NCBI RefSeq assembly: GCF_000420325.1
Contig: NZ_ATUS01000006.1
Location: 64,501 to 128,500, forward strand
Source: Spongiibacter tropicus DSM 19543
GTDB lineage: Bacteria; Pseudomonadota; Gammaproteobacteria; Pseudomonadales; Spongiibacteraceae
Direction of reading: 5' to 3'
Length of the DNA: 64,000 bases
Each line of letters begins with the position of its first letter. The stretch's first letter is position 1. This document shows, in pieces, positions 6,040 to 34,910 of the stretch. The notes below the pieces were generated by a model. That model ran no database searches. It worked only from the letters and a program-made list of their open reading frames with translations, and was not told the DNA's origin. The translations under genes and the position numbers were made by a program.

Positions 6040-6084
6040 CTACCCGTTAGGGTAGTGCTCGTTCGTTTTCAGACTTCGCATAAT
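6040..6084 (+). promoter_or_regulatory. apcA promoter region: Putative activator site and promoter of the ketone carboxylase operon
   Basis: A perfect dyad CTACCC-GTTA-GGGTAG occupies 6040-6055. A -10-like CATAAT follows at 6079-6084, with no recognisable -35 hexamer at 17 bases upstream. The dyad would centre near -43 from the inferred start, the position of a class II activator. Another GGGTAG lies at 6140-6145. This fits activation by the MalT-like regulator or another local factor; the assignment is inference. Confidence 0.4.
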
Positions 6085-6205
6085 TTCCCTCAACGCCAGC
6101 AGCAAACTGTCACCTAGTGGCAGCAAGAACTGCTCGTATGGGTAGTAGTCCGCTCAGGGCTGCTTCACCAGAATGCCCACATAAACCTATAAAAAGAGAA
6201 TTGGC

Positions 6206-8143
6206 ATGGGAAAACTCATCAATATTGATAACGGCGGCACCCTGACCGATATCTGGGTTCTGGATGGTGAGAACTCGTATCACACCAAAACCATTACCAC
6301 GCCGTATGACCTCAGCAAGTGCTTCTTTGAAGGCCTGAAAAAAGTCTCGGAAGACATTTACGGCAAGGAAGATCTGCGGGCGCTGCTGCAATCCACCGAC
6401 CATATCCGCTACTCCACGACTCAGGGGACAAACGCACTGGTCGAACGCAAGGGGCCCAAGCTTGGTCTGTTGCTCAACGGCGGTGACCGCAGTTGGTGCT
6501 GCGACGACGATCAGCAGCGTGCCTTGTTCGATGGGCTGCTGGGTGACCGCGTAGCCGTGCTCCCTGCCGATGCGGAAGGTGAAGCTTTTCAGCGGGCGTT
6601 GACCGATGCGGTGAACAGTCTGTCTGCAAGCGGCGCCAGCCGTATTGTGGTGGCCTACACCGGTGAGGATTACGCCGCGCAGGAGAGTGCCTTGCGCAAG
6701 GCGATGCTGCGCGCCTATCCCCGGCACCTGCTGGGCTCGGTACCCGTCCTTTACGCCAGTGCGCTGTGCCGTCACAGCAATCCGAATACCCGCCTGTGGA
6801 CCTCGCTGTTCAATGCGTTTCTGCATCCGGCGATGGAGCGCTTTCTGTACAACACCGAAGGCGATCTCTCTCAGTACCGCATGCGCAACCCCCTGTTGGT
6901 CTATCGCAACGATGGCTACTCGGGGCGGGTGGCAAAAACGGTGGCGCTGAAAACCTACAGCTCTGGTCCCCGCGGCGGTGCAGAGGGGGCGCTGGCTTAC
7001 AGTCGCTACTACCAGGCCAAACGGGTAATCACCATCGATGTGGGCGGCACTACCACCGATATCGGCCTGATTGAAAATGACCGCATTGTCGACAACCGCT
7101 ACGGGCTGGTTGAAGGCGTGCGCTGTGCCGACCCGCTGGCGGAAATTGTCAGCGTCGGCGTTGGCGGTGGCTCGATTATTCGGGCGGAGAACGGCGCGAT
7201 TTGTGTCGGGCCGGAATCGGTCGGTGGTGCGCCTGGTCCGGCCTGCTTTGGCATGGGCGGCGAGCTGGCCACCATCACGGATGCACTGCTACTGATGGGG
7301 CTGCTCGATCCCAAGACGTACTTCGGCGGCAAGCTGGCATTGCGCGCCGACAAGGCCGAGGCCGCGGTGCGCAAACACGTTGCCGAGCCGCTGGGGCTGG
7401 ATGTGCCCTCTGCCTGTCTGCAAATGCTGGATGCCTGGGCGGGAAAAATTGCCGACGGCATTCGCGACTACACCGACATTACCGACGACTCCGTACTCAT
7501 GGCCTTTGGCGGCGGCGGCCCCATGGGCGTGGCGGCCATCGCCAGAAGCGCCGGCATTGCCAGTGTGCTGATTCCACGCTTATCGGCGGTGTTCAGCGCG
7601 CACGGCATCGGCTTCAGCGACATTGCGCATATCGCCTCTGAAACCGTTGATGGTGGCGACGACGATGCTCTGAGCCGTGCCTTTGACGTGCTCAAAGACC
7701 GGGTGCTCAGGGATATGCGCACCGAGGGTTACGAGGCGGAGGAGTGTCGCCTGGAAGCCTGGTGCGACACCGAGCAGGGGCCGGTAGACCTGCCGATAAC
7801 GGCGGAGTTATCGCTGGCTGATGTCTCCCTGCCCGATGAGCGGCTGTTGCTGAACGTGCGTGCGGTGAAGGCGATTCACCATGCCCGTCTGGCCGACCCG
7901 GCCGACCTGCAGGCCATGGCAGCGGTGCCCGAGGGTGAGCGTTCACTGCTGGTCGCGCAAGAGAGAACACAAGCGGTGCCGGTGTATCGCGTCGAACAGC
8001 AGCAGGCCGGCGCACAGGCCAGTGGCCCGGCGGTACTGGAAGAAGCCTTCTGGACCTGCGCCGTGCCCGATGGCTGGGATTTCCGCTTCACCGCCAACCG
8101 CGACATTTTGCTGAACGTGACCAGCCAGCGTCAGACGAGCTGA
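6206..8143 (+). CDS. apcA: Acetophenone carboxylase-like subunit A (HyuA-type ATPase)
   Basis: The 645-residue protein (about 70 kDa) belongs to the hydantoinase A/oxoprolinase family, whose ASKHA-fold domain phosphorylates bicarbonate or substrate at the expense of ATP. The first phosphate motif is D8-N-G-G-T-L-T-D15, the second is DVGGTTTD (278-285), and the adenosine motif is AFGGGGPMG near 433-441. Size and first position in the operon match ApcA of Aromatoleum aromaticum. The leader Asn in place of the more common Ile/Val in the first motif differs from the second HyuA gene downstream. A weak AAGAGA ribosome site precedes the ATG. It could equally be a subunit of a carboxylase for another ketone. 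Confidence 0.85.
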   Translation: MGKLINIDNGGTLTDIWVLDGENSYHTKTITTPYDLSKCFFEGLKKVSEDIYGKEDLRALLQSTDHIRYSTTQGTNALVERKGPKLGLLLNGGDRSWCCDDDQQRALFDGLLGDRVAVLPADAEGEAFQRALTDAVNSLSASGASRIVVAYTGEDYAAQESALRKAMLRAYPRHLLGSVPVLYASALCRHSNPNTRLWTSLFNAFLHPAMERFLYNTEGDLSQYRMRNPLLVYRNDGYSGRVAKTVALKTYSSGPRGGAEGALAYSRYYQAKRVITIDVGGTTTDIGLIENDRIVDNRYGLVEGVRCADPLAEIVSVGVGGGSIIRAENGAICVGPESVGGAPGPACFGMGGELATITDALLLMGLLDPKTYFGGKLALRADKAEAAVRKHVAEPLGLDVPSACLQMLDAWAGKIADGIRDYTDITDDSVLMAFGGGGPMGVAAIARSAGIASVLIPRLSAVFSAHGIGFSDIAHIASETVDGGDDDALSRAFDVLKDRVLRDMRTEGYEAEECRLEAWCDTEQGPVDLPITAELSLADVSLPDERLLLNVRAVKAIHHARLADPADLQAMAAVPEGERSLLVAQERTQAVPVYRVEQQQAGAQASGPAVLEEAFWTCAVPDGWDFRFTANRDILLNVTSQRQTS

Positions 8144-8158
8144 ATAAGGAGAAAAATA

Positions 8159-8527
8159 ATGAAAGTTCAGGTAACCGAATACCTCAGGGTCGACCTCAAT
8201 GAAGAGCAGTGGGAATGCAATCGCTGTGACCATGTGCTGGGTTCTGCGCGAGAAAACTACAAGCATTTTTTGCTGATCCACGACCGCAATCCCCGCGAAG
8301 TTCACGAGCCGCTGCTGGACCCGGAGCGCTACCGTTTCTGCTTCTCGCCAGACCCGGAAGTCTGCGTGATCTATGAATTCTACTGCCCTAACTGTGGCGT
8401 GATGATGGACGTGGAATACACCGTTCCCGGCCACGCACCCCTGCACGATCTGGAATTGGACATCGACTCGCTGCGGGAGAAATGGCGCGGTGTGCCGGAC
8501 AGCAGCACTGGCAGCGTCAAGGCATAA
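8159..8527 (+). CDS. apcB: Small zinc-ribbon-like carboxylase subunit (ApcB / acetone carboxylase gamma-like)
   Basis: A 122-residue protein with two CxxC pairs, at about 20-23 and 76-79, that could form one zinc site. Small subunits of this type occur in acetone carboxylase (gamma) and acetophenone carboxylase (15 kDa ApcB). It starts 15 bases after apcA behind AAGGAGA and ends 13 bases before the next gene, so it is in the middle of the operon. The metal ligands are visible; metal binding itself is inferred. Confidence 0.82.
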   Translation: MKVQVTEYLRVDLNEEQWECNRCDHVLGSARENYKHFLLIHDRNPREVHEPLLDPERYRFCFSPDPEVCVIYEFYCPNCGVMMDVEYTVPGHAPLHDLELDIDSLREKWRGVPDSSTGSVKA

Positions 8528-8540
8528 GGGGGGCGAGCAG

Positions 8541-10682
8541 ATGAGACGTATTGCAGTAGATATCGGCGGTACCTTCACCGACTGCTTTGTCAGTTGGGAT
8601 TCCCGCTTTGTACAGACCAAGGCACTGACCAGTCACCACAATCTGGCATTGGGCTTTAATGATGCGCTGGATCAGTCCTGCGAAATTCTTAACGTTGACC
8701 GGCGCGAGTTGTTGCAGGCGGTGGATTCTGTGCGTTACGCCACCACTCTGGGCACCAACGCGTTGATCGAGCGCCGTGGCCCCAAGGTCGGCCTGCTGAT
8801 TACCAGCGGCTTCGACAGCACCATTCCCATCTCCCGCGGTCGCGGGTACGGCGATGGTCTGCCGGATGAGAAGGCCCGCGATCTGTCCCGTGCCCGGCGC
8901 CCCGATCCCATTGTTCCCATTGCGCGGATTCGCACCGTCAAACAGCGGATGAACTACCGTGGCGAGGTGTTGATGGACCTCGATGAGCAAGATGTGCGCA
9001 ACAAGCTCAAGGAGCTGGTGGATGCCGGTGTGCAGGCCATCGTGGTGAACATGATCAACTCGGTGGAAAACCCCGAGCACGAGCTGCGTATTCAGGAGAT
9101 CTTCGAAGAGGAGTTTCCCTCCTCGATGCTCGGCGCGATTCCCATGGTGCTCTCCCATCAGGTGGTCGGGCGCAAGGGCGAATACGTGCGGACCTCGTCG
9201 GCCATTATCGACGCCTTCCTGCATTCCGCCATGTATTTCGCAATGAACGCGCTGGAGCAGAACCTGCGGGAAAACGGTTACGACCGGCCGATGCTGTTGG
9301 TGCATAACTCCGGCGGTATGGCGCAGTTGAACTCCACCGATGCGCTGAAGACCCTGCACTCGGGCCCCGTTGCCGGCATTCATGCCGCCGGTCAGCTCGC
9401 CCTGCAGGGCGATGTACAGAATATTGTCTGCGGCGATATGGGCGGCACTTCCTTCGATATCGGTCTGATTACCGAGGGCGGCACCAAACACTACGATTTC
9501 AGCCCGGTGGTTGATCGCTGGCGAGTCACCTTGCCGATGGTGCACCTGGTGACATTGGGGGCCGGGGGTGGCTCTATCGCCAGCTACGACCCCATCTTCG
9601 ACACCGTGCGCATCGGTCCGGAAAGTGCGGGCAGTGACCCCGGTCCGGCCTGCTACGACCGCGGCGGTATGAACCCCACCGTCAGTGATGCCGACCTGAT
9701 CCTCGGCTACCTCGATCCGGAGAACTATGCCAAGGGCGCGATTCCGTTGAATAAGCGTCGCTCGTATCAGGCGCTGGAAGATATCTGCGACGAGATGGAT
9801 ATCGACGAGGTGGACGCGGCTCTGCTGATCAAGTCCATGGCCGACAGCGAAATGGCGGCGGGACTGGTGCGCGAACTCAATGGCGGCGGTTATCAGGCCT
9901 GCGACTTTGTCTTTCTGGCCTACGGCGGCAATGGTCCGCTGCACTGCTGCGGCATTGCCGACAAGGCGGGCATTCGCCGTATTCTGGCGCCGCCCTACAG
10001 CAGCGTGTTCTCCGCCTGTGGCGGTGCCGGGCTGGACCAGATGCACATCCACGAGAAGAACGTCTCACTGGGCTTTTACAACAAGCACACTCGCTCGTTG
10101 TACAACCAGTACGACGCTTTCAACGCGCTGGTTGCCGATCTGGAAGAAAAGGGGCGACAGGATCTGCTGCGTCAGGGCTTCAAGGACGAGGACATTCAGT
10201 ACGTGCTCGAACTGGATATGCGCTATGGCATTCAGAAAATGGAAATCAGTATCGCGCTGGACAATCGCCGACTGAGCAAACCGGGCGAAGTGCTGGCCGC
10301 CATTGAGCAGATGAACGACGACTTCGGCAAACGCTACGGCAAGGAGATCGTATCGCCCGAGTCGGGAGTGTGGGTCACCACCATTCGCGTCGTATCACGG
10401 GTGGATTTGGGCACGGTCACCTTTGATGATCTTGCGCCTCCTGCGCAGCGTATCGCGCCGCCGACGCCGGTGGCACATCGGGAGTGTCACTTCCAGGCCG
10501 CCGACGGTGCGGTAGCGACCCCGATCTACGGTATCGAGGCCCTGCAGCCCGGCGTGCAGATCGATGGACCCGCCATCGTCAATCCCGGCGAAACCACGTA
10601 CCTGGTCGAGCCCGGCTGGACCTATGTCGCGGCAGCACAGGGCGCGGTGTGGTTTCTGCGCAATACCCCCTCTGACGAATAA
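8541..10682 (+). CDS. apcC: Acetophenone carboxylase-like subunit C (second HyuA-type ATPase)
   Basis: The 713-residue protein is a full HyuA/oxoprolinase ATPase: D7-I-G-G-T-F-T-D14 at the N-terminus, a second phosphate motif CGDMGGTSFD, and AYGGNGPLH toward the C-terminal part. Two dissimilar HyuA-like subunits in one operon are a hallmark of acetophenone carboxylase, in contrast to acetone carboxylase which has one. The ATG at 8541 is preferred over an upstream in-frame start at 8490 because it begins exactly at the MRRIAVDIGG motif and follows a GGGGGGCGAG ribosome site. It follows apcB directly. Confidence 0.87.
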   Translation: MRRIAVDIGGTFTDCFVSWDSRFVQTKALTSHHNLALGFNDALDQSCEILNVDRRELLQAVDSVRYATTLGTNALIERRGPKVGLLITSGFDSTIPISRGRGYGDGLPDEKARDLSRARRPDPIVPIARIRTVKQRMNYRGEVLMDLDEQDVRNKLKELVDAGVQAIVVNMINSVENPEHELRIQEIFEEEFPSSMLGAIPMVLSHQVVGRKGEYVRTSSAIIDAFLHSAMYFAMNALEQNLRENGYDRPMLLVHNSGGMAQLNSTDALKTLHSGPVAGIHAAGQLALQGDVQNIVCGDMGGTSFDIGLITEGGTKHYDFSPVVDRWRVTLPMVHLVTLGAGGGSIASYDPIFDTVRIGPESAGSDPGPACYDRGGMNPTVSDADLILGYLDPENYAKGAIPLNKRRSYQALEDICDEMDIDEVDAALLIKSMADSEMAAGLVRELNGGGYQACDFVFLAYGGNGPLHCCGIADKAGIRRILAPPYSSVFSACGGAGLDQMHIHEKNVSLGFYNKHTRSLYNQYDAFNALVADLEEKGRQDLLRQGFKDEDIQYVLELDMRYGIQKMEISIALDNRRLSKPGEVLAAIEQMNDDFGKRYGKEIVSPESGVWVTTIRVVSRVDLGTVTFDDLAPPAQRIAPPTPVAHRECHFQAADGAVATPIYGIEALQPGVQIDGPAIVNPGETTYLVEPGWTYVAAAQGAVWFLRNTPSDE

Positions 10683-10724
10683 CAACAAGAAGCCGGCGGT
10701 CGCCCGTCGGCTCAGGAGAACATC

Positions 10725-12971
10725 ATGACAACGAATACCCCCGCATTGAATCCGGATACCGCCGACGAGAGCACGCTGGTCAATACCTTTCTCAGCAAGA
10801 ACCGGGCGTTTCTCGGTCCCGATCCGGAAATTCAGCGCAACCACCATGTGGCGCCGCGCAGCGAGCGCGAAGAGCGCGTCCTCTCCGGCGAGGTCGACAA
10901 TAATCTGTTTGCCGAGATCCGCTCCGGTTTGCGGGCCGCGCTGGACGAGACCTTCAAGATTGCCGAGATGACGGTGGCCTCACCTGCGGCGCAGTGCGCG
11001 GATATGTCTACCGGTTACTTCACCGCCTCGGGTGACCTGTCACTGGCCTCGACCCGCGGTGTGGCCGGCTTCACTGTGAGCCTGCATTACCCCATTCGTT
11101 TCATTCGCAAATATTTCGAGCAGGATGAAACAGTGGGTATTAAAGAGGGCGATGGTTTCCTGCTCAACGACGCCCACTACGGCGGTATTCACAGCCCGGA
11201 CCAGCACCTGTTCATGCCGATTTTTGATCAGGGCGAAATCGTTAGCTGGTGTGTCTGCGCGATGCACGAAGGGGAAATCGGCGCGCGGGTGCCCGGGGGT
11301 ATGGGGCCGATGATTGAGTCGCCCTGGGACGAAGGGCTGCGCGGTTCACCTATTAAAGTGGTGGAAAATTACGCGCTGAAAACCGATCTGGTGACCTTTC
11401 TGCAGAACAGTTGTCGCGAGCCCCAGACCATGCTGGCCGACCTCAAGGCGCGGCTGGCGGCCTGCTGCCGACTTGAGCGCCGAGGCAAGGAACATATCGC
11501 TCGCTACGGCATTGATTCGGTTATCGGCTTTCTGCGCAGCAATGTGGAATTCATGCGTGACGAAGGGCGTCGACGTATTGCCGAGCTGCCGGACGGCACT
11601 GTGCGCACCCAGTTCTACATTGATGACACCATGCGCGAACCCGCGCTGATGAAGGTGGTGTACAACTTTACGGTGAAGGGTGACAAGGTCATCGTCGATC
11701 TGCGTGGCAGCTCGCCCGAGCTGTTTAACCGTCCCATCAACAGCCTGCTCAGCACCCAGGTGCTGGGTGTGGCAATCACCCTGGCCCACCATATCTGGCC
11801 GGATATGCCTTGTGCGCAGGCCATTATCGACTGCTTCGAGTTCATCACCGATCCGGGCACCATTCCCGACTGTAGCGATCAGGTGCCGGTGGCGCTGTGT
11901 GTGCAGCCCATGTTCAAAATCATGACGGCGGCCGAACTGGCCTTCGCCAAACTCTACTTCGGTGCGCCCAAGCAGTATGGCAAAACCAAGGCCGGATGGT
12001 TTAACCAGCCCGCCGCCATTATCTACGGCGGCATCAACCAGCATCAGGATTCCTGCGGCAATATGTGCGGCGACCTGAACGGCATGGCCGGGGGCGCAAA
12101 ATGCGATGAGGACGGCGAACACAGCATCGCCCCCTGTTTCGGTGCCAATGTGGATATCGGCGAGAGCGAAGAAGCGGAAGAGCAACTGCCGTTTATCTAT
12201 GCGATTTCCAAGCGCATCTGGCCGGGCAACTGTGGCTTTGGCAAATTCCGCGGCGGCGCGGCCTACGAATACGGCCTGATGCGCTACGGTGAACAGCCTT
12301 TCGGCTTCCAGACCTTTACCGCCGGCTCCTACTTCCCGTCGACCTTCGGGCTGTTCGGCGGCTATGCCTGTCCGACCTATGGCACGGCGCGGGTACGTGG
12401 CAAAAACCTGTTCAAGACGATGAAAGAAACCCCGGAGCTGTTCGAGGCGTCCATGGCCACCATCATGAATGAGCGGCCCATCGAAGGTGCCGAATACACC
12501 AGTCATTCGATGGCGGTGGCTTTTGAACTGTATCCGGAAGGCGAGCTGTTCATGACCAGTCAGGGCGGCGGTGGCGGCTACGGCGATGTGCTGGACCGCG
12601 ATCCGGAGCTGGTGGTGAAAGACCTTGAAGAGGGCCTGATCAGTCACACCACGGCCAGTTCGCTCTACGGGCTGGTCTACGACGAGAAGACCCTGGCTGC
12701 CGATCTGGAGGCCACGGCCGAGCGCCGCGATGCCATACGCCGTGCGCGTATTGAGAAGGGCCTCAGTTGGGATGCGTTTATGGCGACCCGCGTCAAGGCG
12801 CAGCCACCCGAGGGCGTGCCGTTCTTCGGTGCCTGGAACGACTCCAAGGAACTCTACTGCGGGCCTTTCGGCAAGGCGCTTCCCGGTGAACTGCCGCCGA
12901 TTATTTTGCCTGATCCCAAAGACGTGGAGATTCAGGAATTGAAAGCGAAGCTAAACGCTTTGCAGGGCTAG
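10725..12971 (+). CDS. apcD: Acetophenone carboxylase-like subunit D (HyuB/hydantoinase B type)
   Basis: The 748-residue protein is a hydantoinase B/oxoprolinase family member, the subunit that carries out the second half reaction (carboxylation of the activated ketone) in ketone carboxylases. Recognisable are the ADMSTGYFTASGDLSL stretch near residues 90-105 and the glycine-rich FGKFRGGAAYEYG segment in the C-terminal half. Several Cys/His residues cluster around QHQDSCGNMCGD, a plausible metal site. A CAGGAG ribosome site precedes the start. It is the fourth gene of the operon. Confidence 0.87.
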   Translation: MTTNTPALNPDTADESTLVNTFLSKNRAFLGPDPEIQRNHHVAPRSEREERVLSGEVDNNLFAEIRSGLRAALDETFKIAEMTVASPAAQCADMSTGYFTASGDLSLASTRGVAGFTVSLHYPIRFIRKYFEQDETVGIKEGDGFLLNDAHYGGIHSPDQHLFMPIFDQGEIVSWCVCAMHEGEIGARVPGGMGPMIESPWDEGLRGSPIKVVENYALKTDLVTFLQNSCREPQTMLADLKARLAACCRLERRGKEHIARYGIDSVIGFLRSNVEFMRDEGRRRIAELPDGTVRTQFYIDDTMREPALMKVVYNFTVKGDKVIVDLRGSSPELFNRPINSLLSTQVLGVAITLAHHIWPDMPCAQAIIDCFEFITDPGTIPDCSDQVPVALCVQPMFKIMTAAELAFAKLYFGAPKQYGKTKAGWFNQPAAIIYGGINQHQDSCGNMCGDLNGMAGGAKCDEDGEHSIAPCFGANVDIGESEEAEEQLPFIYAISKRIWPGNCGFGKFRGGAAYEYGLMRYGEQPFGFQTFTAGSYFPSTFGLFGGYACPTYGTARVRGKNLFKTMKETPELFEASMATIMNERPIEGAEYTSHSMAVAFELYPEGELFMTSQGGGGGYGDVLDRDPELVVKDLEEGLISHTTASSLYGLVYDEKTLAADLEATAERRDAIRRARIEKGLSWDAFMATRVKAQPPEGVPFFGAWNDSKELYCGPFGKALPGELPPIILPDPKDVEIQELKAKLNALQG

Positions 12972-13020
12972 TCCGGTCGGTGCCCCAGGGCACCGCAACG
13001 CCAATCACAATAATGACGGG

Positions 13021-13863
13021 ATGAACATGCTGGAATCCAACGCCATGAATACACACCAACTCTGGCTGAATGCCCATGCATTTGCCGAAAATGTTCTGAA
13101 TCAGGGGCGGGTGCTGCAATGGCACAACCCGATTGAATTTGCCGAGAACTACAAAAAAATCCAGGGCATTGTCTCGGCCGACCGCCTCAGTCTGCCGCTC
13201 ATGGGGTTTCTCGACTACTGGGTCGATGCCCATCCCCATGTCCTGCAGACCATGACCGGCAAACGCCGGGTGCGCTACGCCATCAAGAAATTGCTGACCA
13301 ATGAAGACATGCGTCAGGAGCTGCGTGAACTCGTGGCCGCCTGCTGCGCGATGGTGCCCTGCGAGTTGTTGATTGAACTGCCGTCCAATGCGGCGCTCAT
13401 CGCCTGGGCCCACGGTCTCGCCAATCCCGGCGAAGAGGTGTCTGGCCTGAGCGATCTGGATATCGACTCTACCTCGGTCTACCTGGCTGATACGGTGCGA
13501 CAGCTCAAGGCGGCCGGAATCGCGGGGGTGGTGAGCACGCTGTCTGATGCCGACATGGCGGCGGGGGCGACCGTGGAGCTATACCAGCCGTTGATGAATG
13601 TGGCGGCGAACTATCACTGGCAGTTTGCTTTCCGTTGCCCGGTGATGGCCACTGCAGAGCGCTTCTCTGCAGGTGATTGGCATTGCCTCGGCGGTGATAT
13701 GAGCAGCCAGCGCAAGGACCTTATCTCGCTGCCTGCGGCGTTCTGGTCTGCCGAGGCTTCGGATGAGCTTGGTGACGCGCCGTGGTATTACGCGGAGCTG
13801 CCCGCCTTTGTCGAGCCAGAGCAGGTTCGGCAGAAGCTGACGCAACTGCGCGGTTTGGCCTAG
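13021..13863 (+). CDS. apcE: ApcE-like fifth carboxylase subunit (no known domain)
   Basis: A 280-residue (about 31 kDa) soluble protein with no motif I recognise. The assignment rests on position and size: in Aromatoleum the operon has a fifth 34-kDa subunit, ApcE, needed with the ABCD core for activity, directly before the CoA ligase gene. Here it lies 49 bases after apcD and 9 bases before the ligase. Another in-frame ATG lies nine codons in. If homology fails, it should be called hypothetical. Confidence 0.65.
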   Translation: MNMLESNAMNTHQLWLNAHAFAENVLNQGRVLQWHNPIEFAENYKKIQGIVSADRLSLPLMGFLDYWVDAHPHVLQTMTGKRRVRYAIKKLLTNEDMRQELRELVAACCAMVPCELLIELPSNAALIAWAHGLANPGEEVSGLSDLDIDSTSVYLADTVRQLKAAGIAGVVSTLSDADMAAGATVELYQPLMNVAANYHWQFAFRCPVMATAERFSAGDWHCLGGDMSSQRKDLISLPAAFWSAEASDELGDAPWYYAELPAFVEPEQVRQKLTQLRGLA

Positions 13864-13872
13864 GAGGTGCCC

Positions 13873-15861
13873 ATGATTGTCGAAGGGCAAAAACTCTGGG
13901 AGCCGTCCGCGGCGTTTGTTGAAAGCAGCAATATGACCGCGCTGATGCACTGGCTCGGCGAGCGGCAACACCTGCAGTGCAAGAACTATAAGGAACTGTG
14001 GCAGTGGTCAGTCACCCAGCCCGAAGCGTTCTGGGCGGCGATGTGGGACTACTTCGAGGTGATCAGCGATACGCCTTACGAGCGCGTACTCAGCGATCGC
14101 CAGATTCGCCCCGGAGTGCGTTGGTTTGAAGGCAGTCGGGTAAATTTTGCCGAACATATCCTGCGCCACAAGGGCAGCCATGCGGCAATTTCGGCTATGG
14201 CCGAAACTCGTGATCTGGAGGTCACGAGTTGGGATGAGCTGGCATCGCAGGTGCGCCGCGTGGCAACGAAGCTGCGCGAGTGGGGGATTCGCCCTGGCGA
14301 CCGCGTGAGTGCGGTGATGCCCAATCGACCGGAGACCGTTGTCGCCATGTTGGCGGTGATCAGCATTGGCGGTGTGTGGAGTAATGCGGCGCCTGAGTTT
14401 GGTACTCAGGCGATTCTTGACCGCCTGGGCCAGGTTGAGCCCAGGCTGGTCTTTTTTGGCGACGGTTATGAGTTTGGCGGCAAACGCTTTGATCGCACGG
14501 CCATGCTGTCTGAGCTGCTGGCGGCGTTGCCCTCTGTGGAGCGGGTAGTGCGGCTGGATGTGCTGGGTGACTGCCCCGCGTTTACAGCCGATGCCGAGGT
14601 CAGCGACTGGCCGGGTTTGATGGCGGCCGCTGATCCGGGAGAGGCCGCGTTTCAGTTTGAGCGGGTCGCCTGTGATCACCCGCTGTGGTTTGTGTTTTCC
14701 TCCGGCACAACGGGCCTGCCCAAGGCCATCGCTCACTCCCATGTGGGCGTGCTGATTGAAATGCTCAAGTTCATGACTTTCCACATGAACCTGAAGACCG
14801 GCGATAACAGTTTCTTCTACACCACCACGGGTTGGGTCATGTTCAATCTGGTGGTGGGGATGATGCTGACCGGTGCCGGCGCCATTCTCTACGATGGCAG
14901 CCCCGTGTATCCGCAAACCGATATGTTGTGGAAACTGGCAGAGCAGAGTCAGGCCAGTCACTTCGGTGCCAGTCCGACCTATGTACAACTGATGGAGAGC
15001 AATCAGGTGGTGCCGAAACAGCACTATGCGCTGGACAAGCTCACCACCGTGCTGGTCGGCGGCTCACCGTCCATCCCCTCAACCTTTGCGTGGTTCTATC
15101 AGAATGTGAAGGACGAGCTTTGGGTGACCTCCCAGAGCGGCGGCACTGAAATCGCCAGTGCCTTTGTTGCCGCCACACCGACGCAGCCCGTTTACGCTGC
15201 CGAGATACAGGCGCGGGCGTTGGGCATGTCGGTAAAAGCCTTGAATGACAGCGGAGAGCCGGTGATTGATGAAGTGGGCGAACTGATCTGCGATACACCA
15301 TTCCCGTCCATGCCGCTGTACTTCCTTGGCGATGACGACAATAGCCGTTACTGGTCTTCGTATTTTGAAGAGATTCCCGGTGTCTGGCGGCACGGCGACT
15401 TTATCAAAATCAATGAACGCGGTGGCTGTTATATCTACGGTCGCTCTGATGCCACCTTGAACCGCTTTGGGGTTCGCATTGGCACCTCAGAGATCTATCA
15501 GGCAGTGGAATCTCTGGAGGGTGTCAGCGACAGTCTGGTGGTGTGTATTGAAACCGCAGACGGCGGTTTTTATATGCCCTTGTTTGTCAGCCTGACTGCG
15601 CAGCAACGCTGTGATGAGGCGTTGAAGCAAGAGATTACCCGCAAGCTGAAAACTGCCTGCTCGCCCCGCCATGTCCCCGACGAGATTATTCCCGTCCCCG
15701 ACATTCCCTACACGCTGACCGGCAAAAAACTGGAGGTGCCGGTGCGTAAAATTCTAAAGGGGGCCAAAGCCGACGAGGTCGCCAGCCGTGGTTCCATGCG
15801 AAACCCTGACAGCCTGGATTTCTTTGTCGATTTTTATCGAGAAAAGAAACACTGGATGTGA
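13873..15861 (+). CDS. 3-oxoacid CoA ligase (acetoacetyl-CoA synthetase/benzoylacetate-CoA ligase type)
   Basis: The 662-residue adenylate-forming enzyme would activate the 3-oxoacid made by the carboxylase to its CoA thioester using ATP. The A3 motif FSSGTTGLPKA lies near residue 275, the A8 region YGRSDATLNRFGVRIG in the C-terminal third, and the A10 lysine in LTGKKLEVPVRK near 616. The long N-terminal part (LWEPSA, FEGSRVNFAEH) is typical of acetoacetyl-CoA synthetases. The ATG at 13873 follows GGAGG at 13863-13867. It closes the operon, as the bal gene does in Aromatoleum. The following thiolase is not in the window. Confidence 0.9.
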   Translation: MIVEGQKLWEPSAAFVESSNMTALMHWLGERQHLQCKNYKELWQWSVTQPEAFWAAMWDYFEVISDTPYERVLSDRQIRPGVRWFEGSRVNFAEHILRHKGSHAAISAMAETRDLEVTSWDELASQVRRVATKLREWGIRPGDRVSAVMPNRPETVVAMLAVISIGGVWSNAAPEFGTQAILDRLGQVEPRLVFFGDGYEFGGKRFDRTAMLSELLAALPSVERVVRLDVLGDCPAFTADAEVSDWPGLMAAADPGEAAFQFERVACDHPLWFVFSSGTTGLPKAIAHSHVGVLIEMLKFMTFHMNLKTGDNSFFYTTTGWVMFNLVVGMMLTGAGAILYDGSPVYPQTDMLWKLAEQSQASHFGASPTYVQLMESNQVVPKQHYALDKLTTVLVGGSPSIPSTFAWFYQNVKDELWVTSQSGGTEIASAFVAATPTQPVYAAEIQARALGMSVKALNDSGEPVIDEVGELICDTPFPSMPLYFLGDDDNSRYWSSYFEEIPGVWRHGDFIKINERGGCYIYGRSDATLNRFGVRIGTSEIYQAVESLEGVSDSLVVCIETADGGFYMPLFVSLTAQQRCDEALKQEITRKLKTACSPRHVPDEIIPVPDIPYTLTGKKLEVPVRKILKGAKADEVASRGSMRNPDSLDFFVDFYREKKHWM

Positions 15862-15870: not shown

Positions 15871-15911
15871 TGGGCTTTTAAGGACTCCCCGAATGGGTAG
15901 TTAAAAGCCCA
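15871..15911 (+). terminator. Inverted repeat after the carboxylase operon
   Basis: TGGGCTTTTAA at 15871-15881 pairs perfectly with TTAAAAGCCCA at 15901-15911 across a 19-base loop. It starts 9 bases after the ligase stop codon, so it probably ends or stabilises the operon transcript. There is no clear T run after it. The loop holds another GGGTAG (15895-15900), the hexamer found in the operon's promoter dyad. Confidence 0.5.
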
Positions 15912-16339
15912 ACTTCTCTACCGCTACTATTTGAGTCCTTATCAAAGCTGGGTGGTGATACACAGTCCCATGAATTCTGTTGAATCGTAGTACGCCCGAT
16001 TTTTCATAATATTAATAAGAACGGGATGGTTAACATTGAAAAATAAAAAATTGCTGGCGTCAAGCATTTTGTTGAAATCACGCGAAGCTTGAAACCATAT
16101 ACGGGGCAATAGGTTAGCTCTGTTTCATGCCGTTCGCAGAGGATGCGGCATTGTGGGCTGGGAGCCACATAAGAGCCTGGAGAAAGAGAGTCGAGTCGCG
16201 TTGCAGCGATGGAGATTGCCAATGGCTGGCAGGCTTGTTCAGTCATCTTAGCCGATTCCCTCGCAGCCTATCCAGAACGAAGAACGCGCAGCGTTGGGCT
16301 GCGCGTTCGAGGGATGGTCAGTCTGGTTCCAGTGCATCT
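15912..16339. other. Gene-free junction between chromosome and ICE end
   Basis: No convincing gene is present between the CoA ligase terminator and the DUF2274 gene. The stretch turns AT-rich between about 15990 and 16090, contains the TTTTTCAT octamer at 16000-16007, and includes about 330 bases of presumed ICE terminal DNA. An 80-codon frame on the minus strand (16004-16246) has no ribosome site or recognisable content and is not called. Confidence 0.6.
16000..16007 (+). other. att: Putative ICE attachment core (attR-like), TTTTTCAT
   Basis: The octamer TTTTTCAT equals the published direct-repeat core of Tn4371-family ICEs. It lies 333 bases beyond the last conserved transfer gene (DUF2274), where the non-integrase end of these elements falls, and just after a chromosomal operon. 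The octamer also occurs by chance at 59370-59377 and, inverted, at 56135-56142, so the call rests on position. The matching copy should lie beyond the right edge next to the integrase gene. Confidence 0.65.
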
Positions 16340-16585
16340 TCAGCTTGGCTTCGGTGGCACGGCCTTGCTGCCGTTTCCTTTCCTGAATCCCCGATCCCCC
16401 GCCATGAACGCCTCCAGCATGTGCGGGATCAGCGTCGAGGCATCGACCGCCTCGCCATACGCCTGCGCATGCAGCGCGGCGTAGCGGTCGAGATCGGCTT
16501 TCAAGCTGGCCGGGCAAGCGAAGGTCAGCTTGACGCTTTCGGTCTTGGGTAGCGGCCCCAGCCGCAGTTTCTTGGTCGTGCTCAT
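16340..16585 (-). CDS. DUF2274 family protein, last gene of the trb operon
   Basis: An 81-residue basic protein carrying the DUF2274 pattern (KLRLGPLPKTESVKLTF at the N-terminus, then a helical SLKADLDRYAALHAQ segment). The helical part recalls ribbon-helix-helix proteins. It overlaps the trbI stop by ATGA and ends the transfer operon, its standard position in Tn4371-type elements. Its function is not known. Confidence 0.85.
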   Translation of the reverse strand: MSTTKKLRLGPLPKTESVKLTFACPASLKADLDRYAALHAQAYGEAVDASTLIPHMLEAFMAGDRGFRKGNGSKAVPPKPS

Positions 16586-17859
16586 CGAGAAGTCCCCTTG
16601 TTGAAGAACAGCGGCTGATAAGGCCGTAGCACCAGATCGCGGTTGACGATGATGCGCACCGGCAAGCCGGGGCGGCTGGTCAGCGTGGGTTGGATGTTGA
16701 GATTGCGCCGGGTCACTTCCTGGCCGACCTGGTTCACGGTGTCCTGCAGGCTGTCGCGCCCGGCGATGATGACGCGATCGCCGTCCTGGCGGTTCTCAGG
16801 TGCAGCCAGTTCGGCACCGACACCCAGCAGCGTGGTCAGCACGGCACCTGCAAAGATCCGATCCCAATGCCAGTCCACGTTGTCCTCCAGACCGGCATAG
16901 CCTGCCGGGTCGGTGCCGATCAGGTTGTCGAGCGTGAGTGATGACGTGTCGGGCAGGATGATGCGATTCCACACCACCTGCACGCGGCTCTGGCCGTAGC
17001 TGACCTGGCTGTTGTACTTGCCCAGTATGCGAGATCCCTGCGGGATCAGCAGGAACTTGCCAGTGGCCGTGTCGTAGATCGGTTCCGTCACCGTGGCGAT
17101 CACGTCGCCCGGCAAGTCGGACTTGATGCCCGTGACCAGTGCCCCGGCAATGACCGTTCCGGCCATCACCTGATACGGCGAGGTGGGCATTTGCAGGTTG
17201 CCGGAGTTACGGGTTTCCGTAGAACCGCCTGTCAGGAACGCCTCTTTCTGGTCTTGCCGGTTCTGCACGGCAGTCGGATCAGCAGGCTGGGCCGCCGTCG
17301 AGGCCGGGCCAGCGGCCAGTGGATCGAAAGCGGCATTGGCGGCGAAGCCCGGCGCGGCAGCGACTTGCGACTGCGCCACGGGCGCGGCCTGCGGGGAGCC
17401 GGTGCGGAAGAACACCGTTGAAGCTGCCGCCGCTTCTGCTTCCTTGTGCAGCGCATCGTTGGGGTCGTAGCCGGGCGCGGCATAGGTGGCGGCGACCGGC
17501 TGCTGCGAATTGACGATGGCCGGCCCCAGATCACCCGGTAGCGGTGGCCCCAGCTCCGGCACGTCGGGCGGCAGCGCTGGCAACTTGGAATAGTCGGCAG
17601 GAAGTTGGTCGAGGCCTTCCGAGCGCGATACACGATCCACGTTGTACAGTTCGGTGGATTCGCCCGCGCCGCGTTGCTGCGGTTGCAGTGACCAGATCAG
17701 CGCGCCCATCACGCCAACCGACAGGCCGCCAGCGAGGATGGCCAGCGTGCGTCGGTTCAGACGCGTGACCGGGCGCGGTTGGGCGCGCAGCGCCACCGCC
17801 TCGGGTGCCATCTTGTCCGCCTGCGGCGTGGCAAGGTCGGGAGTGTCGTCCTGGCTCAT
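16582..17859 (-). CDS. trbI: TrbI, VirB10-like type IV secretion channel protein
   Basis: The 425-residue protein has a short cytoplasmic tail, one membrane helix near residues 38-57 (RTLAILAGGLSVGVMGALIW), a proline- and alanine-rich periplasmic linker, and a conserved C-terminal half with the VirB10 beta-barrel pattern (GDVIATVTEPIYDTATGKFL, PQGSRILGKYNSQV). VirB10 proteins span both membranes and gate the mating channel. It starts two bases after the trbG stop and is coupled to the DUF2274 gene. Confidence 0.93.
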   Translation of the reverse strand: MSQDDTPDLATPQADKMAPEAVALRAQPRPVTRLNRRTLAILAGGLSVGVMGALIWSLQPQQRGAGESTELYNVDRVSRSEGLDQLPADYSKLPALPPDVPELGPPLPGDLGPAIVNSQQPVAATYAAPGYDPNDALHKEAEAAAASTVFFRTGSPQAAPVAQSQVAAAPGFAANAAFDPLAAGPASTAAQPADPTAVQNRQDQKEAFLTGGSTETRNSGNLQMPTSPYQVMAGTVIAGALVTGIKSDLPGDVIATVTEPIYDTATGKFLLIPQGSRILGKYNSQVSYGQSRVQVVWNRIILPDTSSLTLDNLIGTDPAGYAGLEDNVDWHWDRIFAGAVLTTLLGVGAELAAPENRQDGDRVIIAGRDSLQDTVNQVGQEVTRRNLNIQPTLTSRPGLPVRIIVNRDLVLRPYQPLFFNKGTSR

Positions 17860-17861
17860 GC

Positions 17862-18854
17862 TCAGTTCCTCCCGACGATGCCATCCGCGCGCTCGATGCG
17901 CACCATATCGCCCTTGTCGGCCCCCAGGCGCAGTTCTGCTGCACCGAACAGGCGATCCACGATGTAGTACGGCGAGCGGAAGCGATAGTTCACCAGTTGC
18001 CCGTCGCCCTGTGCGCCGATGACGAACAGCGGCGGCAGCTCGCCCTGGGCGATGCCTGCCGGGAACTGGATATAGACCTTCTCGCCATCATCAAAAGCGC
18101 GCAGCGGTTTCCACGATGGATTGCTGCCGCTGATTGCATAGCGAAAGCGGATGTTATCCAGCGACAAGCCTGCATCGACCGGCGCGGCAGCGTTGGCGGC
18201 TTGGGCTTGGCGCCGCAAGGCCAGCATTCGGTCTTTCGGGTAGTCCCAGGACACCGACGCCATCCATGCCTTGTCGGTCGAAGTCAGTTCCAGCAGGTAC
18301 GTCCTGCGGCTGGTGGTAATGACCAGATTGGTCTTCAAGCTGGAACGGATAGGCTTGACCAGCACATTGACGCGCAGATCGGCCCCGCTGCCGCTGGAGG
18401 TGTCACCGACGATCCAGCGCACGGTATCGCCCGCAGCGACCGTCACCAGTTCCTCGCCAGGCTGGAGCGCGATCACCGTCACGCGACCTACTGACGCATA
18501 GACCTGGTACAGCGCGCCATCGCTATACGGCCAGACCTGGATCGCATTGACATAGCCTTCGCGCGTCGGAGCCACCCGTGCCTCGGCATTGGCTTTCGAG
18601 ACACGTACCGTCTCATCAGCCGGTTCAGGCGCAGGCTTCGCATCCTTTTCCTCCGGCACTGGCTTCAACTGCTCAGGCAATGGCAGTGGCTCTGCAATAG
18701 TGACCACCTCGATCGGCACAGGCATTTCCGGCAAAGGCTCCGCCTGTACCGGCTCATCCAAGGAAATCACTGGCGGGGGTTTGCCCTGCGTGGCGCAGCC
18801 GGCCAAGGCCAGCACGACAAGCGGCAAAGCGTAAAAACGGAAAGGCACATTCAT
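17862..18854 (-). CDS. trbG: TrbG, VirB9-like outer-membrane complex protein
   Basis: The 330-residue protein begins with a lipoprotein signal (LALAGC, cysteine at about 20), followed by a proline/glutamate-rich spacer and a conserved VirB9 domain (residues about 90-320, with IQVWPYSDGALYQVYA and TNLVITTSRRTYLLEL). VirB9 proteins form the outer-membrane ring with VirB7 and VirB10. The trbF stop overlaps its ATG. It is slightly long for the family because of the linker. Confidence 0.92.
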   Translation of the reverse strand: MNVPFRFYALPLVVLALAGCATQGKPPPVISLDEPVQAEPLPEMPVPIEVVTIAEPLPLPEQLKPVPEEKDAKPAPEPADETVRVSKANAEARVAPTREGYVNAIQVWPYSDGALYQVYASVGRVTVIALQPGEELVTVAAGDTVRWIVGDTSSGSGADLRVNVLVKPIRSSLKTNLVITTSRRTYLLELTSTDKAWMASVSWDYPKDRMLALRRQAQAANAAAPVDAGLSLDNIRFRYAISGSNPSWKPLRAFDDGEKVYIQFPAGIAQGELPPLFVIGAQGDGQLVNYRFRSPYYIVDRLFGAAELRLGADKGDMVRIERADGIVGRN

Positions 18855-19555
18855 GGCTTCACTCCTTCAGACGAATCCAGTTCACGGCTCCACGACAGGC
18901 CATTGACGTAGATGCCCAGCGGGTTGCGGCGCAGGCGTTCTTCGGTGCGCGGGGTCTGCTGCACGATGGACACCACCGCCGTCCATCGCTCCAGCCCGGC
19001 CGCCGCGCCATTGACGTAGCGGCGTTCCATCCAGCGCACGTTGAACGACGCATCGCTGGCGCGAACCACGCTGGTGATCTGTACCGTTACCGACTCTTTG
19101 CCGATGCGGGCGAACGGGTCATTCACCCGCGCATAGTCGTTAAGCACCGCCGCGCCTCGGTCGGTGGTGTAGTCGTAGGCATCGAGCCAGTTCTGGCGCA
19201 CGACGATGGGGTCGATGGACAGTGAGCGCACCAGCGTCACGAACCGCGCGATATGGTGTGCCGTCTGCGCATCGGTGGGCCGGTACGGCGTGGCCGCTTC
19301 GCCCACGGTGCGCACCTGGCCGGACTGATCGACTTCGATGACATAGGGCGTGACGATGGATTGGGCCGAGCGCCACACCAGGCCACCGGCCATCAGCAGC
19401 GCGAGCACCAGGCAGCCGAAGGCCATCAATCGCCAGTTCTTGGCCTGCACGCGGGCCGAGCCGATGCGCTCGTCCCACACCTGGGCAGCGGCTTGATACG
19501 GGGTGGCAGGCTGCGGCGTATCGGCATAGCGCACCTGCGGTCGTTTGAATCGCAT
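18851..19555 (-). CDS. trbF: TrbF, VirB8-like inner-membrane scaffold
   Basis: The 234-residue protein has a cytoplasmic N-terminus, one membrane helix near residues 42-64 (WRLMAFGCLVLALLMAGGLV) and a periplasmic VirB8-like domain ending in VNGLSWSREL. VirB8 proteins nucleate assembly of the secretion channel. It lies 17 bases after trbL and overlaps trbG by ATGA. Confidence 0.92.
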   Translation of the reverse strand: MRFKRPQVRYADTPQPATPYQAAAQVWDERIGSARVQAKNWRLMAFGCLVLALLMAGGLVWRSAQSIVTPYVIEVDQSGQVRTVGEAATPYRPTDAQTAHHIARFVTLVRSLSIDPIVVRQNWLDAYDYTTDRGAAVLNDYARVNDPFARIGKESVTVQITSVVRASDASFNVRWMERRYVNGAAAGLERWTAVVSIVQQTPRTEERLRRNPLGIYVNGLSWSRELDSSEGVKP

Positions 19556-19572
19556 GGCGTTCTCCTTGAAAG

Positions 19573-20967
19573 TCAGCTATCGGAATCTCGCAGACTCGGG
19601 CCTTGGCCCGAACCGCCGCCGTCGCCACCGCGCAGCGTGTGCGCGGCCGTGGTGGTGGCCTGGGTGAGTCGTTGGCGGCGTTGCAGGCGCTTGGCCCAGC
19701 CCGGTTTTTCCTGCTTCTGCGCGTTGGCCGTGTCGCCAGCGGCATCGCCTGCGGTGGCCTGCCCGGAACTGGCAGCGCCACCGCCTGAGCCACCATCGGT
19801 GCCGGAGCCTTGCCAGCCTGCTTTGAATGGCGCGGCCGCCTTGGCTGCCGCCGCTTTGATGCCTGCACCGGCGCGCTGGCCAGCGGCCTGTGCGCCGCCC
19901 TTGGCGACACTGCCCAGTCCAGCCATCGCGCCTTTGGCTCCGCCGCCCGCAGCGGCAGAACCGGCCTGGAAAGCCGACTTCGCGCTGCCAGCCGCCGAAG
20001 TCGCGGCCCGCGCGCCAGCCCCGGCGAGCTTGGCGGCAGCCGGTGCCATGCGCGCTCCGGCCATCACGGCACCGCCCACGCCGGTGGCGGCGGCACCTAC
20101 GGCAACCGCCGCGCCTGCGGCACCAATCGCAGCACCGGCCATCGCGCCTGCGCCAAGCTGCGGTGCACCGGATACCAGCCCGGTGGCAATGCCCGGCCCG
20201 AAGATCCCCAACGCCAGCAGCGTGAGCGAGGCCAGCATGATGACCACTGCATGGTCGATGGACGGCTCGGCCGGATGCACCTGGAACTCGGCAAACAGGC
20301 CCGAGCCGATGCCGACGATGACGGCCAGCACCAGCACCTTGATGCCCGAGGACACCACGTTGCCCAGCACCTTCTCGGCGAGGAAGCTGGTCTTGTTCCA
20401 CAGCGCGAACGGCACCAGCACGAAGCCCGCGAGCGTGGTCAGTTTGAACTCGATCAGCGTGATGAAAAGCTGGATCGCCAGCACGAAGAAACACAGGATC
20501 ACCACCGCCCAGGCCAGGAACATGACCACGATGGGCGTCATGTTCACGAACACTTCGGGGAAGCCCGCCATGTCGCTGATCTGCTCAAGAATGGGGGCCG
20601 CCGCGTCGATGCCGGTCTTGGCCAAGCGTCCCGGTTGCAGGAATTCGCCCATGCTCATCGTCGAGCCGCTGGCCGTCAGGCCGAGGCCCGCGAACGAGCG
20701 GAAGACAATGCTGGCCAGCCAGTTGAAGTTGTTGATGATGTAGGCGAAGGCACCGACGTAAAGCACCTTGCGCAGCAGTTTGGCGATCACATCATCGCCC
20801 TGATCGGTGGCGTGGCTCATCGCCCAGTACAGCCCGGCAATCGTCATGTCGATGACGATCAGCGTGGCGGTGAGGAACGCGACTTCGCCCTGCAGCAGCC
20901 CAAAGCCCGAGTCGATGTAGCGCGAGAAGGTAGCGAGAAATCGGTCGATCACGGTCACGTCATTCAT
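19573..20967 (-). CDS. trbL: TrbL, VirB6-like polytopic membrane protein
   Basis: The 464-residue protein has several membrane segments in its first 260 residues (for example VAFLTATLIVIDMTIAGLYW and the region around VVMFLAWAVVILCFFVLAIQL) and a long Ala/Gly-rich, then basic, C-terminal tail. VirB6/TrbL proteins form the inner-membrane part of the DNA path. It overlaps the trbK stop by ATGA. The low-complexity tail is normal for TrbL in this ICE family. Confidence 0.93.
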   Translation of the reverse strand: MNDVTVIDRFLATFSRYIDSGFGLLQGEVAFLTATLIVIDMTIAGLYWAMSHATDQGDDVIAKLLRKVLYVGAFAYIINNFNWLASIVFRSFAGLGLTASGSTMSMGEFLQPGRLAKTGIDAAAPILEQISDMAGFPEVFVNMTPIVVMFLAWAVVILCFFVLAIQLFITLIEFKLTTLAGFVLVPFALWNKTSFLAEKVLGNVVSSGIKVLVLAVIVGIGSGLFAEFQVHPAEPSIDHAVVIMLASLTLLALGIFGPGIATGLVSGAPQLGAGAMAGAAIGAAGAAVAVGAAATGVGGAVMAGARMAPAAAKLAGAGARAATSAAGSAKSAFQAGSAAAGGGAKGAMAGLGSVAKGGAQAAGQRAGAGIKAAAAKAAAPFKAGWQGSGTDGGSGGGAASSGQATAGDAAGDTANAQKQEKPGWAKRLQRRQRLTQATTTAAHTLRGGDGGGSGQGPSLRDSDS

Positions 20968-21266
20968 GGCACGTCCCCCTCGAAGGGCATGGCGCCCTGG
21001 TCACTGATGGGCGAGTCGAAGCTCGGCGGGATCGGCGGCAGATCGGCCAACGTGCGGAACTCGTCAGGCCCGGTTTCACCGGCGACGAAGCGCCGCCGGA
21101 AAGCGTCGGCCGCGGGCAGGCAGGCGTCTTCGCCTGCGGCCGTCCTGTCGGCGGCACACTGCACACGCAAAGCCTTGAGCCGCACGGGATCAGCGACCAG
21201 GTCTTCGGTCGGCTGCTGGCTGCAAGCGACCAGCAGCACGGGAAGCAGCAAGGAAACGCATCGCAT
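20964..21266 (-). CDS. trbK: TrbK-like entry-exclusion lipoprotein
   Basis: A 100-residue protein with a lipoprotein signal peptide (LLPVLLVAC, cysteine at about 15) and a small periplasmic part. Its place between trbJ and trbL is that of trbK in IncP plasmids, where TrbK blocks redundant conjugation. Its sequence resembles the 'TrbK-alt' group of ICEs rather than RP4 TrbK. The ATG is 12 bases after the trbJ stop. Confidence 0.8.
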   Translation of the reverse strand: MRCVSLLLPVLLVACSQQPTEDLVADPVRLKALRVQCAADRTAAGEDACLPAADAFRRRFVAGETGPDEFRTLADLPPIPPSFDSPISDQGAMPFEGDVP

Positions 21267-21278
21267 GGCCGTCTCCCG

Positions 21279-24466: not shown

Positions 24467-24478
24467 GTCGGCACTCCC

Positions 24479-28677: not shown

Positions 28678-28913
28678 ACCCTGGCCTCCGATTTCTCCTG
28701 CGCTGATTCCCCGTGGAAAACGCGGCACAAAGGCGTGCCGCAGGCGTCAGGATCGGTGCCGGTTCAGTGCCGGTCAAAGACCGTTATCGGCAGCAAGGTG
28801 ATGCAAAAAGCATGGTGTCATGCAGAGGCGAAACCAGTAAAAACGCCGCAGGCGTGAGCGCGCGGCGGCGTGTCGAGAAAGAAAAATCAAGATTCGCGGC
28901 AGAAAGCCAACAA

Positions 28914-29168: not shown

Positions 29169-29170
29169 GG

Positions 29171-30115: not shown

Positions 30116-30129
30116 TTCGCCTCCTGTTG

Positions 30130-34891: not shown

Positions 34892-34910
34892 GATGGCTGG
34901 CTCTCCGCGC

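Follow-up and report, generated by a model that had tools for sequence, protein, structure and literature searches.

An acetophenone carboxylase-type operon in Spongiibacter tropicus that probably acts on a hydrophobic ketone other than acetophenone

A six-gene operon for a five-subunit carboxylase and a CoA ligase

We analyzed a 64,000-nucleotide stretch of the Spongiibacter tropicus DSM 19543 genome (the window), which is part of a 218,170-bp contig (C6; positions prefixed C6 follow the contig numbering) in a 3.95-Mb genome. The window carries a six-gene operon encoding five subunits of the kind found in acetophenone carboxylase (Apc), followed by a CoA ligase, and these genes are accompanied by a divergent reductase gene, a regulator gene, a palindrome, and a large inserted element (Table 1). 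A preliminary description of this DNA had given the gene order together with sizes of 645, 122, 713, 748, 280, and 662 residues, and the six open reading frames (ORFs) are indeed open at those places; alternative GTG starts would extend the apcC-like product to 730 residues (51 bases upstream) and the ligase to 664 residues (position 13867). The two HyuA-type subunits that it recognized were also found, Hydantoinase_A being present in both A and C. The operon is confirmed as real and not a product of chance because six related genomes share it gene by gene; in one of these (L013) the contig ends inside apcA. As a whole, we consider it probable that the operon encodes an ATP-dependent, biotin-independent ketone carboxylase of an uncharacterised Apc-like class, working in a pathway for hydrophobic ketones or enones.

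Table 1. Genes, sites, and inserted DNA at the carboxylase locus (window positions unless prefixed C6)
Feature	Position	Strand	Remarks
apcA-like alpha-prime subunit, 645 aa	6206..8143	+	Pfam Hydantoinase_A; best PDB match 5l9w_b
apcB-like gamma subunit, 122 aa	8159..8527	+	Pfam Acetone_carb_G; four zinc cysteines present
apcC-like alpha subunit, 713 aa	8541..10682	+	Pfam Hydantoinase_A; pocket signature T-L-H-P-V-H-L
apcD-like beta subunit, 748 aa	10725..12971	+	Pfam Hydantoinase_B
apcE-like epsilon subunit, 280 aa	13021..13863	+	Predicted URO-D/ApcE-type barrel
Acetoacetyl-CoA-synthetase-family (3-oxoacid) CoA ligase, 662 aa	13873..15861	+	Pfam AMP-binding and ACAS_N; TIGR01217
CurA-type NAD(P)H-dependent enone reductase (MDR family), 366 aa	4939..6039	-	Divergent from apcA; Pfam ADH_N_2
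MalT/LAL-type LuxR-family regulator, 901 aa	2183..4888	-	Candidate cassette activator; Pfam GerE and TPR_MalT
Palindrome CTACCC-N4-GGGTAG	6040..6055		Candidate operator of the MalT-like regulator; between curA and apcA
Half-site TGGGTAGT	6139..6146	+	-67 from apcA; at -66 to -68 in four related loci
Half-site TGGGTAGT	15894..15901	+	Ancestral TonB receptor promoter region, now severed from the receptor
Integrative conjugative element, 49,505 bp	16041..64000, continuing C6:128501-130055		Between ligase and TonB receptor
Left end repeat AAATAAAAAA	16041..16050		Right copy at C6:130046-130055, outside the window
Crotonase	1290..2174	+	Domain scan
TetR	464..1174	-	Domain scan
Esterase (Abhydrolase_3)	C6:63982-64998, window 1-498		Crosses the left window edge

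The core subunits fall with the Apc family

For each of the four core subunits (A to D), the top sequence match in the Protein Data Bank (PDB) was the corresponding chain of acetophenone carboxylase (5l9w), above acetone carboxylase and caprolactamase or hydantoinase; D also matched a caprolactamase subunit in the PDB and NCBIfam searches. All four scored below the cut-offs of the NCBIfam Apc equivalogs (343.5 bits against 1250 for A, 119.8 against 250 for B, 529.8 against 1500 for C, and 260.8 against 1500 for D). Searches with the ApcD model were bimodal: seven genomes, which define what we call true Apc, hold proteins of 1390 to 1562 bits, four of them above the 1500-bit cut-off, and full-length Apc-like proteins score about 268 to 390. 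Locus L207 is the operon of Aromatoleum aromaticum EbN1, its epsilon subunit matching 9fou end to end (655 bits) and its ApcD matching 5l9w_A (1605 bits). One Rhodocyclaceae-family genome (G053; loci L210 and L214) encodes one true-ApcD-like protein together with six ApcD-model matches of 268 to 355 bits. A profile of the window D subunit ordered the relatives from the opposite side, with at least 991 bits for full-length Apc-like proteins, about 524 for loci L213 and L214, 382 to 415 for true ApcD, 214 to 255 for the acetone carboxylase type, and less than 165 for the hydantoinase type.

The 79 distinct, named Apc-like loci that were fetched are the best of 302 relatives, which occur in Nevskiales, Burkholderiales, Rhizobiales, Rhodococcus, Brevibacterium, gastric Helicobacter, and one haloarchaeon. 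A FastTree phylogeny was computed from 117 beta subunits after removal of pieces shorter than 480 aa, of sequences identical to or nested in others, and of eleven loci that were small or duplicates. Comparison of the HyuB subunit with ApcD and acetone carboxylases had been proposed as a check in the preliminary description, and D grouped with ApcD and not with hydantoinases: Apc-like proteins and ApcD, with L213 and L214, held together at a support of 0.999, apart from acetone carboxylase (Acx) and hydantoinase (Hyd) proteins. Support was 1.0 for the seven tips of the Zhongshania group, for the same tips with a groundwater metagenome-assembled genome (L027), and for true ApcD; monophyly of the Apc-like proteins as a whole reached only 0.547. 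On these sequences, the Zhongshania group and the single groundwater betaproteobacterial assembly are placed as a separate deep branch with its own cassette (support of 1.0).

Acetone carboxylase has three subunits in the order acxABC, and the window has five with gamma in second place; hydantoinases and oxoprolinases consist of alpha and beta only and would cluster with Hyd, which D does not. Gamma, with 122 aa, is Apc-like in length, and beta, with 748 aa, exceeds the Apc and Acx lengths given in PMC5214803. An ATP-dependent amidohydrolase of the hydantoinase or lactamase type with extra subunits would share the common HyuA/HyuB fold and would suit the match of D to a caprolactamase subunit, but gamma and epsilon, both absent from hydantoinases according to PMC5214803, are present here, the cassette has a CoA ligase and a thiolase, and the tree position is elsewhere. 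We regard such an enzyme as highly improbable.

The fifth subunit is most likely of the ApcE type

The fifth protein had no Pfam or NCBIfam match. Its AlphaFold2 model (62 sequences) reached a mean pLDDT of 90.3, and among 350,542 chains searched with Foldseek, ApcE (9fou) occupied hits 1 to 3, with a best E value of 1.1e-6 (9fou_B), TM scores of 0.56 to 0.60, and 12% identity; the next entry followed at 5.2e-4. Three comparisons speak against an ApcE identity, however. A phmmer search of the window epsilon against six ApcE sequences gave no match, hhalign of the epsilon families reached only 84.6% probability (P of 6.9e-6, window residues 103 to 277), and VIA-align scored URO-D up to Z 18.1 versus Z 16.4 for 9fou_B. 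Because URO-D scores slightly above it, ApcE is not singled out by the fold alone; the Foldseek rank, gene position, and profile similarity do so together. Thus, epsilon is most likely an ApcE-type subunit with a predicted URO-D-like barrel, and the fifth subunit of ApcE kind claimed earlier is borne out by fold even though phmmer is silent.

When three true ApcE proteins were scanned with Pfam URO-D, one (L209:7978-8898) scored 22.2 bits (8e-5), under the 23.9-bit cut-off, another gave 0.074, and that of EbN1 gave none. The epsilon gene is present in 7 of the 21 family genomes, that of S. tropicus included. In gastric Helicobacter, six Apc-like clusters with a CoA transferase and a thiolase (L056, L059, L062, L064, L076, and L077) had no detected epsilon homolog, and a seventh locus (L065) has one.

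A histidine pair marks the presumed ketone pocket

In Apc, the alpha residues lining the presumed ketone pocket are L81, F281, N282, P285, I333, Q344, and T345 (PMC5214803). At these seven positions, the true Apc proteins all read LFNPIQT (7/7) and the window alpha subunit reads TLHPVHL, with P285 alone retained. Across 92 distinct Apc-like alpha subunits, the pocket is mostly T-[ILV]-H-P-[IV]-H-L, and the histidine pair occurs in 88 of them compared to none of the seven true Apc proteins. Three of the remaining four keep the first histidine, with Y, R, or E at the second position, and one is truncated. The pair is not present in the aligned acetone carboxylase, caprolactamase, and N-methylhydantoinase (alignments read by eye). 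Loci L213 and L214 represent a third Apc-like type, with the pocket THNPIEV and an adjoining thiolase-like ORF (by eye).

The ApcD metal site (D/H/D/H) is retained in beta, as are the four zinc cysteines in gamma, and ASKHA motifs are found in alpha (by eye) and alpha-prime. The alpha fingerprint R/KERiDsxG (PMC5214803) is matched in part, with KQRMNYRG in the window and RERIDSSG in EbN1.

The ligase scored 741 bits against the acetoacetate-CoA ligase model TIGR01217 (cut-off of 521), while the EbN1 gene in the bal position encodes a 464-aa protein with AMP-binding_C_2, i.e., a member of another family. BoxB was absent from all seven operon-bearing genomes, with EbN1 as the positive control, a result that tests the aerobic benzoyl-CoA route only. 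True acetophenone carboxylase, which the subunits and gene order shared with EbN1 would suit, is therefore hardly to be expected here: the equivalog cut-offs are missed by far, the pocket departs from the one found in 7/7 true Apc proteins, the ligase is of another family, and BoxB was not found in those seven genomes. By its predicted proteins, the operon encodes an Apc-type five-subunit carboxylase but not Apc proper, because it lies far below the Apc cut-offs and has a longer beta subunit, a ligase of another family, and a differing ketone pocket. The claim that the locus reproduces apcABCDE plus ligase of Aromatoleum thus stands for the subunits and their order and fails for ligase family, beta length, and pocket. 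In turn, the suggestion of a substrate other than acetophenone was probably right.

The operon belongs to a conserved cassette

In the six related genomes, the cassette runs from a MalT-like regulator and a CurA-type reductase through the divergent apcABCDE and ligase genes to a TonB receptor and an SCP2-type thiolase. The receptor is found in five of the six loci and the thiolase in all six; in L016 the thiolase lies on the other side and is cut by the end of the stretch. MalT-like homologs adjoin the operon in five of the six, the sixth being cut by a contig end, and MalT-like genes occur in 28 of 98 clustered loci (S. tropicus included; a few of these loci overlap). The CurA-type proteins are 62 to 82% identical among the related loci; that of the window scored 338 bits against NCBIfam CurA, below the cut-off of 440. 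A CurA-like gene also directly follows apcD in three true apc operons (L145, L211, and L212, from Panacagrimonas and two genomes of its family), and in L145 and L212 it lies between apcD and apcE.

The preliminary description had listed MalT-like, CurA, crotonase, and esterase genes as neighbors. All four are present, but crotonase, TetR, and esterase had no homolog in the fetched neighborhoods of the six related operons. Crotonase and esterase were thus rejected as pathway genes and look like bystanders, while the real partners are a TonB receptor (78%; C6:130071-132491) and a thiolase (70%; C6:132584-133744), which lie beyond an inserted element and just outside the window.

A conjugative element splits the cassette

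The inserted element, which we take to be of the Tn4371 type, carries VirB/Trb conjugation genes (type IV secretion system), a DUF3363 protein, a ParB-domain protein, and a tyrosine integrase at its far end, beyond the window. Copies of AAATAAAAAA stand 49,505 bp apart at its ends. In the joined empty site, a presumed TTG start opens the receptor reading frame, which places the element in the first codons of the receptor. An att motif of Tn4371-type elements, TTTTTCAT, was tried as the end sequence and rejected; it has a copy at window position 16000 and none near the receptor on the right flank, and the shared repeat is AAATAAAAAA. At the DUF2274-trbI end, similarity starts at window position 16045 in 5 of the 10 plasmid records matched (Hydrogenophaga, Pseudomonas aeruginosa, and Azotobacter). 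The element also carries an RND efflux pump (AcrB family) with an outer membrane efflux protein (30130-34957) and a low-GC insert (46 to 50%; 55916-61647) that encodes a protein kinase and has two ORFs lacking Pfam matches, and which could be a defense or stress module.

One may ask whether this strain is losing the pathway, with the receptor parted from its promoter and start codon by the element and the operon persisting as a remnant for lack of time. The insertion in the first codons of the receptor and the presence of the epsilon gene in only 7 of 21 family genomes would agree with such a course. Against it, no stops interrupt the six operon genes or the thiolase, the apcA promoter region is intact with its palindrome and half-site, and the element may excise. 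Decay appears rather improbable.

A palindrome is shared with an Ame-like operon

The exact palindrome CTACCC-N4-GGGTAG occurs between curA and apcA in all seven operon-bearing family genomes. Upstream regions were surveyed at 81 Apc-like loci with readable DNA (12 of 93 were left out for a contig edge or want of apcA), and an exact copy lies within 700 bp upstream at 15 of them. When up to 2 mismatches in 12 were allowed, 20 of the 26 loci at which a MalT-like gene was in view had a site, as did 22 of 25 with an acetoacetyl-CoA-synthetase-type ligase, compared to none of 11 sigma-54-labelled and none of 8 CoA-transferase-labelled loci; mismatches were counted by eye, locus groups overlap, and related loci are not independent. 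We infer that the MalT-like regulator pairs with the palindrome as its operator.

The S. tropicus genome contains exactly two exact palindromes, with the same spacer. The second (C1:1867242) lies approximately 340 bp before an operon of MMPL, DUF1329, YCF48, DUF1302, DUF1329, and MDR genes, a module resembling AmeABCD, a system that aids Castellaniella defragrans in growing on apolar monoterpenes (PMC6394551). Parts of this Ame-like module have homologs near Apc-like operons in 15 compared loci, not all of them complete or close. Its DUF1329 protein is 66 to 69% identical in six loci (Nevskia, Nevskiaceae, Solimonas, Rudaea, and Rhodanobacteraceae), and in the related genome G014 a full Ame-like module, preceded by two one-mismatch sites, is located 2 kb past the MalT gene.

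A shared regulon is nonetheless weakened by several counts. Exact palindromes occur in 23 of 369 gammaproteobacterial genomes, S. tropicus included (22 of 368 others), such that the second site could be chance. Each of three of the seven operon-bearing genomes (S. tropicus included) has one extra exact palindrome, and among the 14 family genomes that gave no epsilon match, 2 carry it, with 2 copies in all. Moreover, a second Ame-like copy in G014, closer to the S. tropicus module, has no palindrome upstream; in operon-bearing G009 the best site upstream of the module has 2 mismatches and may be chance; and G012 and G004, which lack the operon, have no site better than 3 mismatches in the fetched 16 kb. 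The G012 module is 84 to 92% identical to that of S. tropicus, except for YCF48 (67%). Taken singly, the pieces of evidence from the Ame-like module are modest; in combination, they favor a hydrophobic substrate.

A proposed pathway for a hydrophobic ketone

By analogy with Apc, alpha would phosphorylate the enol of the ketone, alpha-prime would activate bicarbonate, beta and gamma would form the core, and epsilon would close or couple the complex, yielding a 3-oxo acid. The ligase would convert this acid into its CoA ester, which the SCP2-type thiolase would split into an acyl-CoA and acetyl- or propionyl-CoA. Beforehand, the CurA-type reductase would probably saturate an alpha,beta-unsaturated ketone, and the TonB receptor would import the substrate or a precursor. 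The MalT-like regulator would act at the palindrome; a further copy of this site precedes the Ame-like operon, whose products would export apolar compounds or confer tolerance to them. A hydrophobic ketone (or enone) of aliphatic, alicyclic, or terpenoid type, and not acetophenone, is the most likely substrate; CurA points to an enone precursor in the Zhongshania branch.

Some observations weigh against this pathway. In alpha-prime, the Apc residues E248 and K281 are replaced by S and D in 17 of 18 aligned Apc-like proteins, that of the window included, and by N and D in the haloarchaeal one; the role of this subunit in bicarbonate activation is therefore uncertain. CurA-type genes occur in only 9 of the 98 clustered loci, of which six belong to the Zhongshania group, and three further loci have weaker matches; therefore, the enone idea concerns that branch. 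In S. tropicus itself the TonB receptor gene is now without its start and promoter, and the cassette may therefore not work as a whole here. Finally, the papers searched showed no biochemistry for any member of the Apc-like class.

Acetone or another short alkyl ketone could instead be the substrate, the enzyme then standing in for acetone carboxylase. Helicobacter Apc-like members adjoin a CoA transferase and a thiolase (H. bizzozeronii, PMC3234257), resembling clusters that lead from acetone to acetyl-CoA, and the window ligase belongs to the acetoacetyl-CoA synthetase family. However, the searched Xanthobacter and Azotobacter genomes encode both an Apc-like HyuB and one that profile score and tree cluster place with the acetone carboxylase type, and the two therefore look non-redundant there. 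D is also far from the acetone carboxylase cluster, and a pathway for acetone would hardly call for CurA, the TonB receptor, and the Ame-like module. We consider a short-ketone substrate unlikely and retain the hydrophobic ketone.

A bolder extension would make the MalT-controlled, histidine-pair (T-x-H-P-[IV]-H-L) Apc-like enzymes a family of isoprenoid or terpenoid ketone carboxylases. CurA, carboxylase, ligase, thiolase, TonB receptor, and Ame-type exporter would then form one LAL-palindrome regulon for terpenoid or apocarotenoid ketones and enones, and the sigma-54 and CoA-transferase branches would serve other ketones. We offer this as speculation with some, rather small, chance of being right.

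Apc-like clusters in diverse genomes outside Aromatoleum have already been reported, without a substrate and with the advice that assignments of distant members need caution (Weidenweber et al. 2017, PMC5214803), and one in H. bizzozeronii has been noted (PMC3234257). As of 2017, the Apc branch comprised one characterized enzyme with one natural substrate (PMC5214803). In the literature listings and passages searched, no characterized member, pocket signature, operator, or regulon was found for the Apc-like class. No paper paired "acetophenone carboxylase" with "uroporphyrinogen decarboxylase" or "ketone carboxylase" with "methyl ketone". As far as titles and abstract beginnings go, papers on acetone carboxylase with hydantoinase and "terpen-" did not characterize the class, and the papers listed for isophorone carboxylase did not treat that enzyme. 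New here are crotonase and esterase as apparent bystanders, the splitting of the cassette by an element, and the palindrome shared with an Ame-like operon. The pocket signature, palindrome, and conserved cassette are handles toward the natural ketones of the Apc-like class, and a biotin-free, C-C-forming carboxylase for larger ketones would be useful in biocatalysis.

Comparison with known systems

The closest known system is ApcABCDE of A. aromaticum EbN1 (core, 5l9w; epsilon, 9fou), which shares the order alpha-prime, gamma, alpha, beta, epsilon, and then CoA ligase, as well as metal-site and ATP-site residues and the epsilon fold. The window differs in a beta subunit of 748 aa, 64 residues longer than the 684-aa ApcD, and in its ligase family, yet both ligases would make a 3-oxoacyl-CoA. 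It has a MalT-like regulator where a two-component system, adiRS, is predicted for EbN1 (PMC4729919), and its cassette adds CurA, the TonB receptor, and the thiolase. Acetone carboxylase AcxABC (5svb and 5m45) has alpha, beta, and gamma homologs, and the same kind of chemistry would be expected, but Acx is without alpha-prime and epsilon. The Apc-like clusters of diverse bacteria (PMC5214803; Helicobacter, PMC3234257) are comparable four- or five-gene apcABCD(E)-like clusters. AmeABCD (PMC6394551) shares the set of DUF1302, DUF1329, YCF48/COG4447, and HAE3/MMPL proteins with the Ame-like module, likened by domain set alone; this module would be a neighbor or possible regulon partner of the carboxylase and not a part of it.

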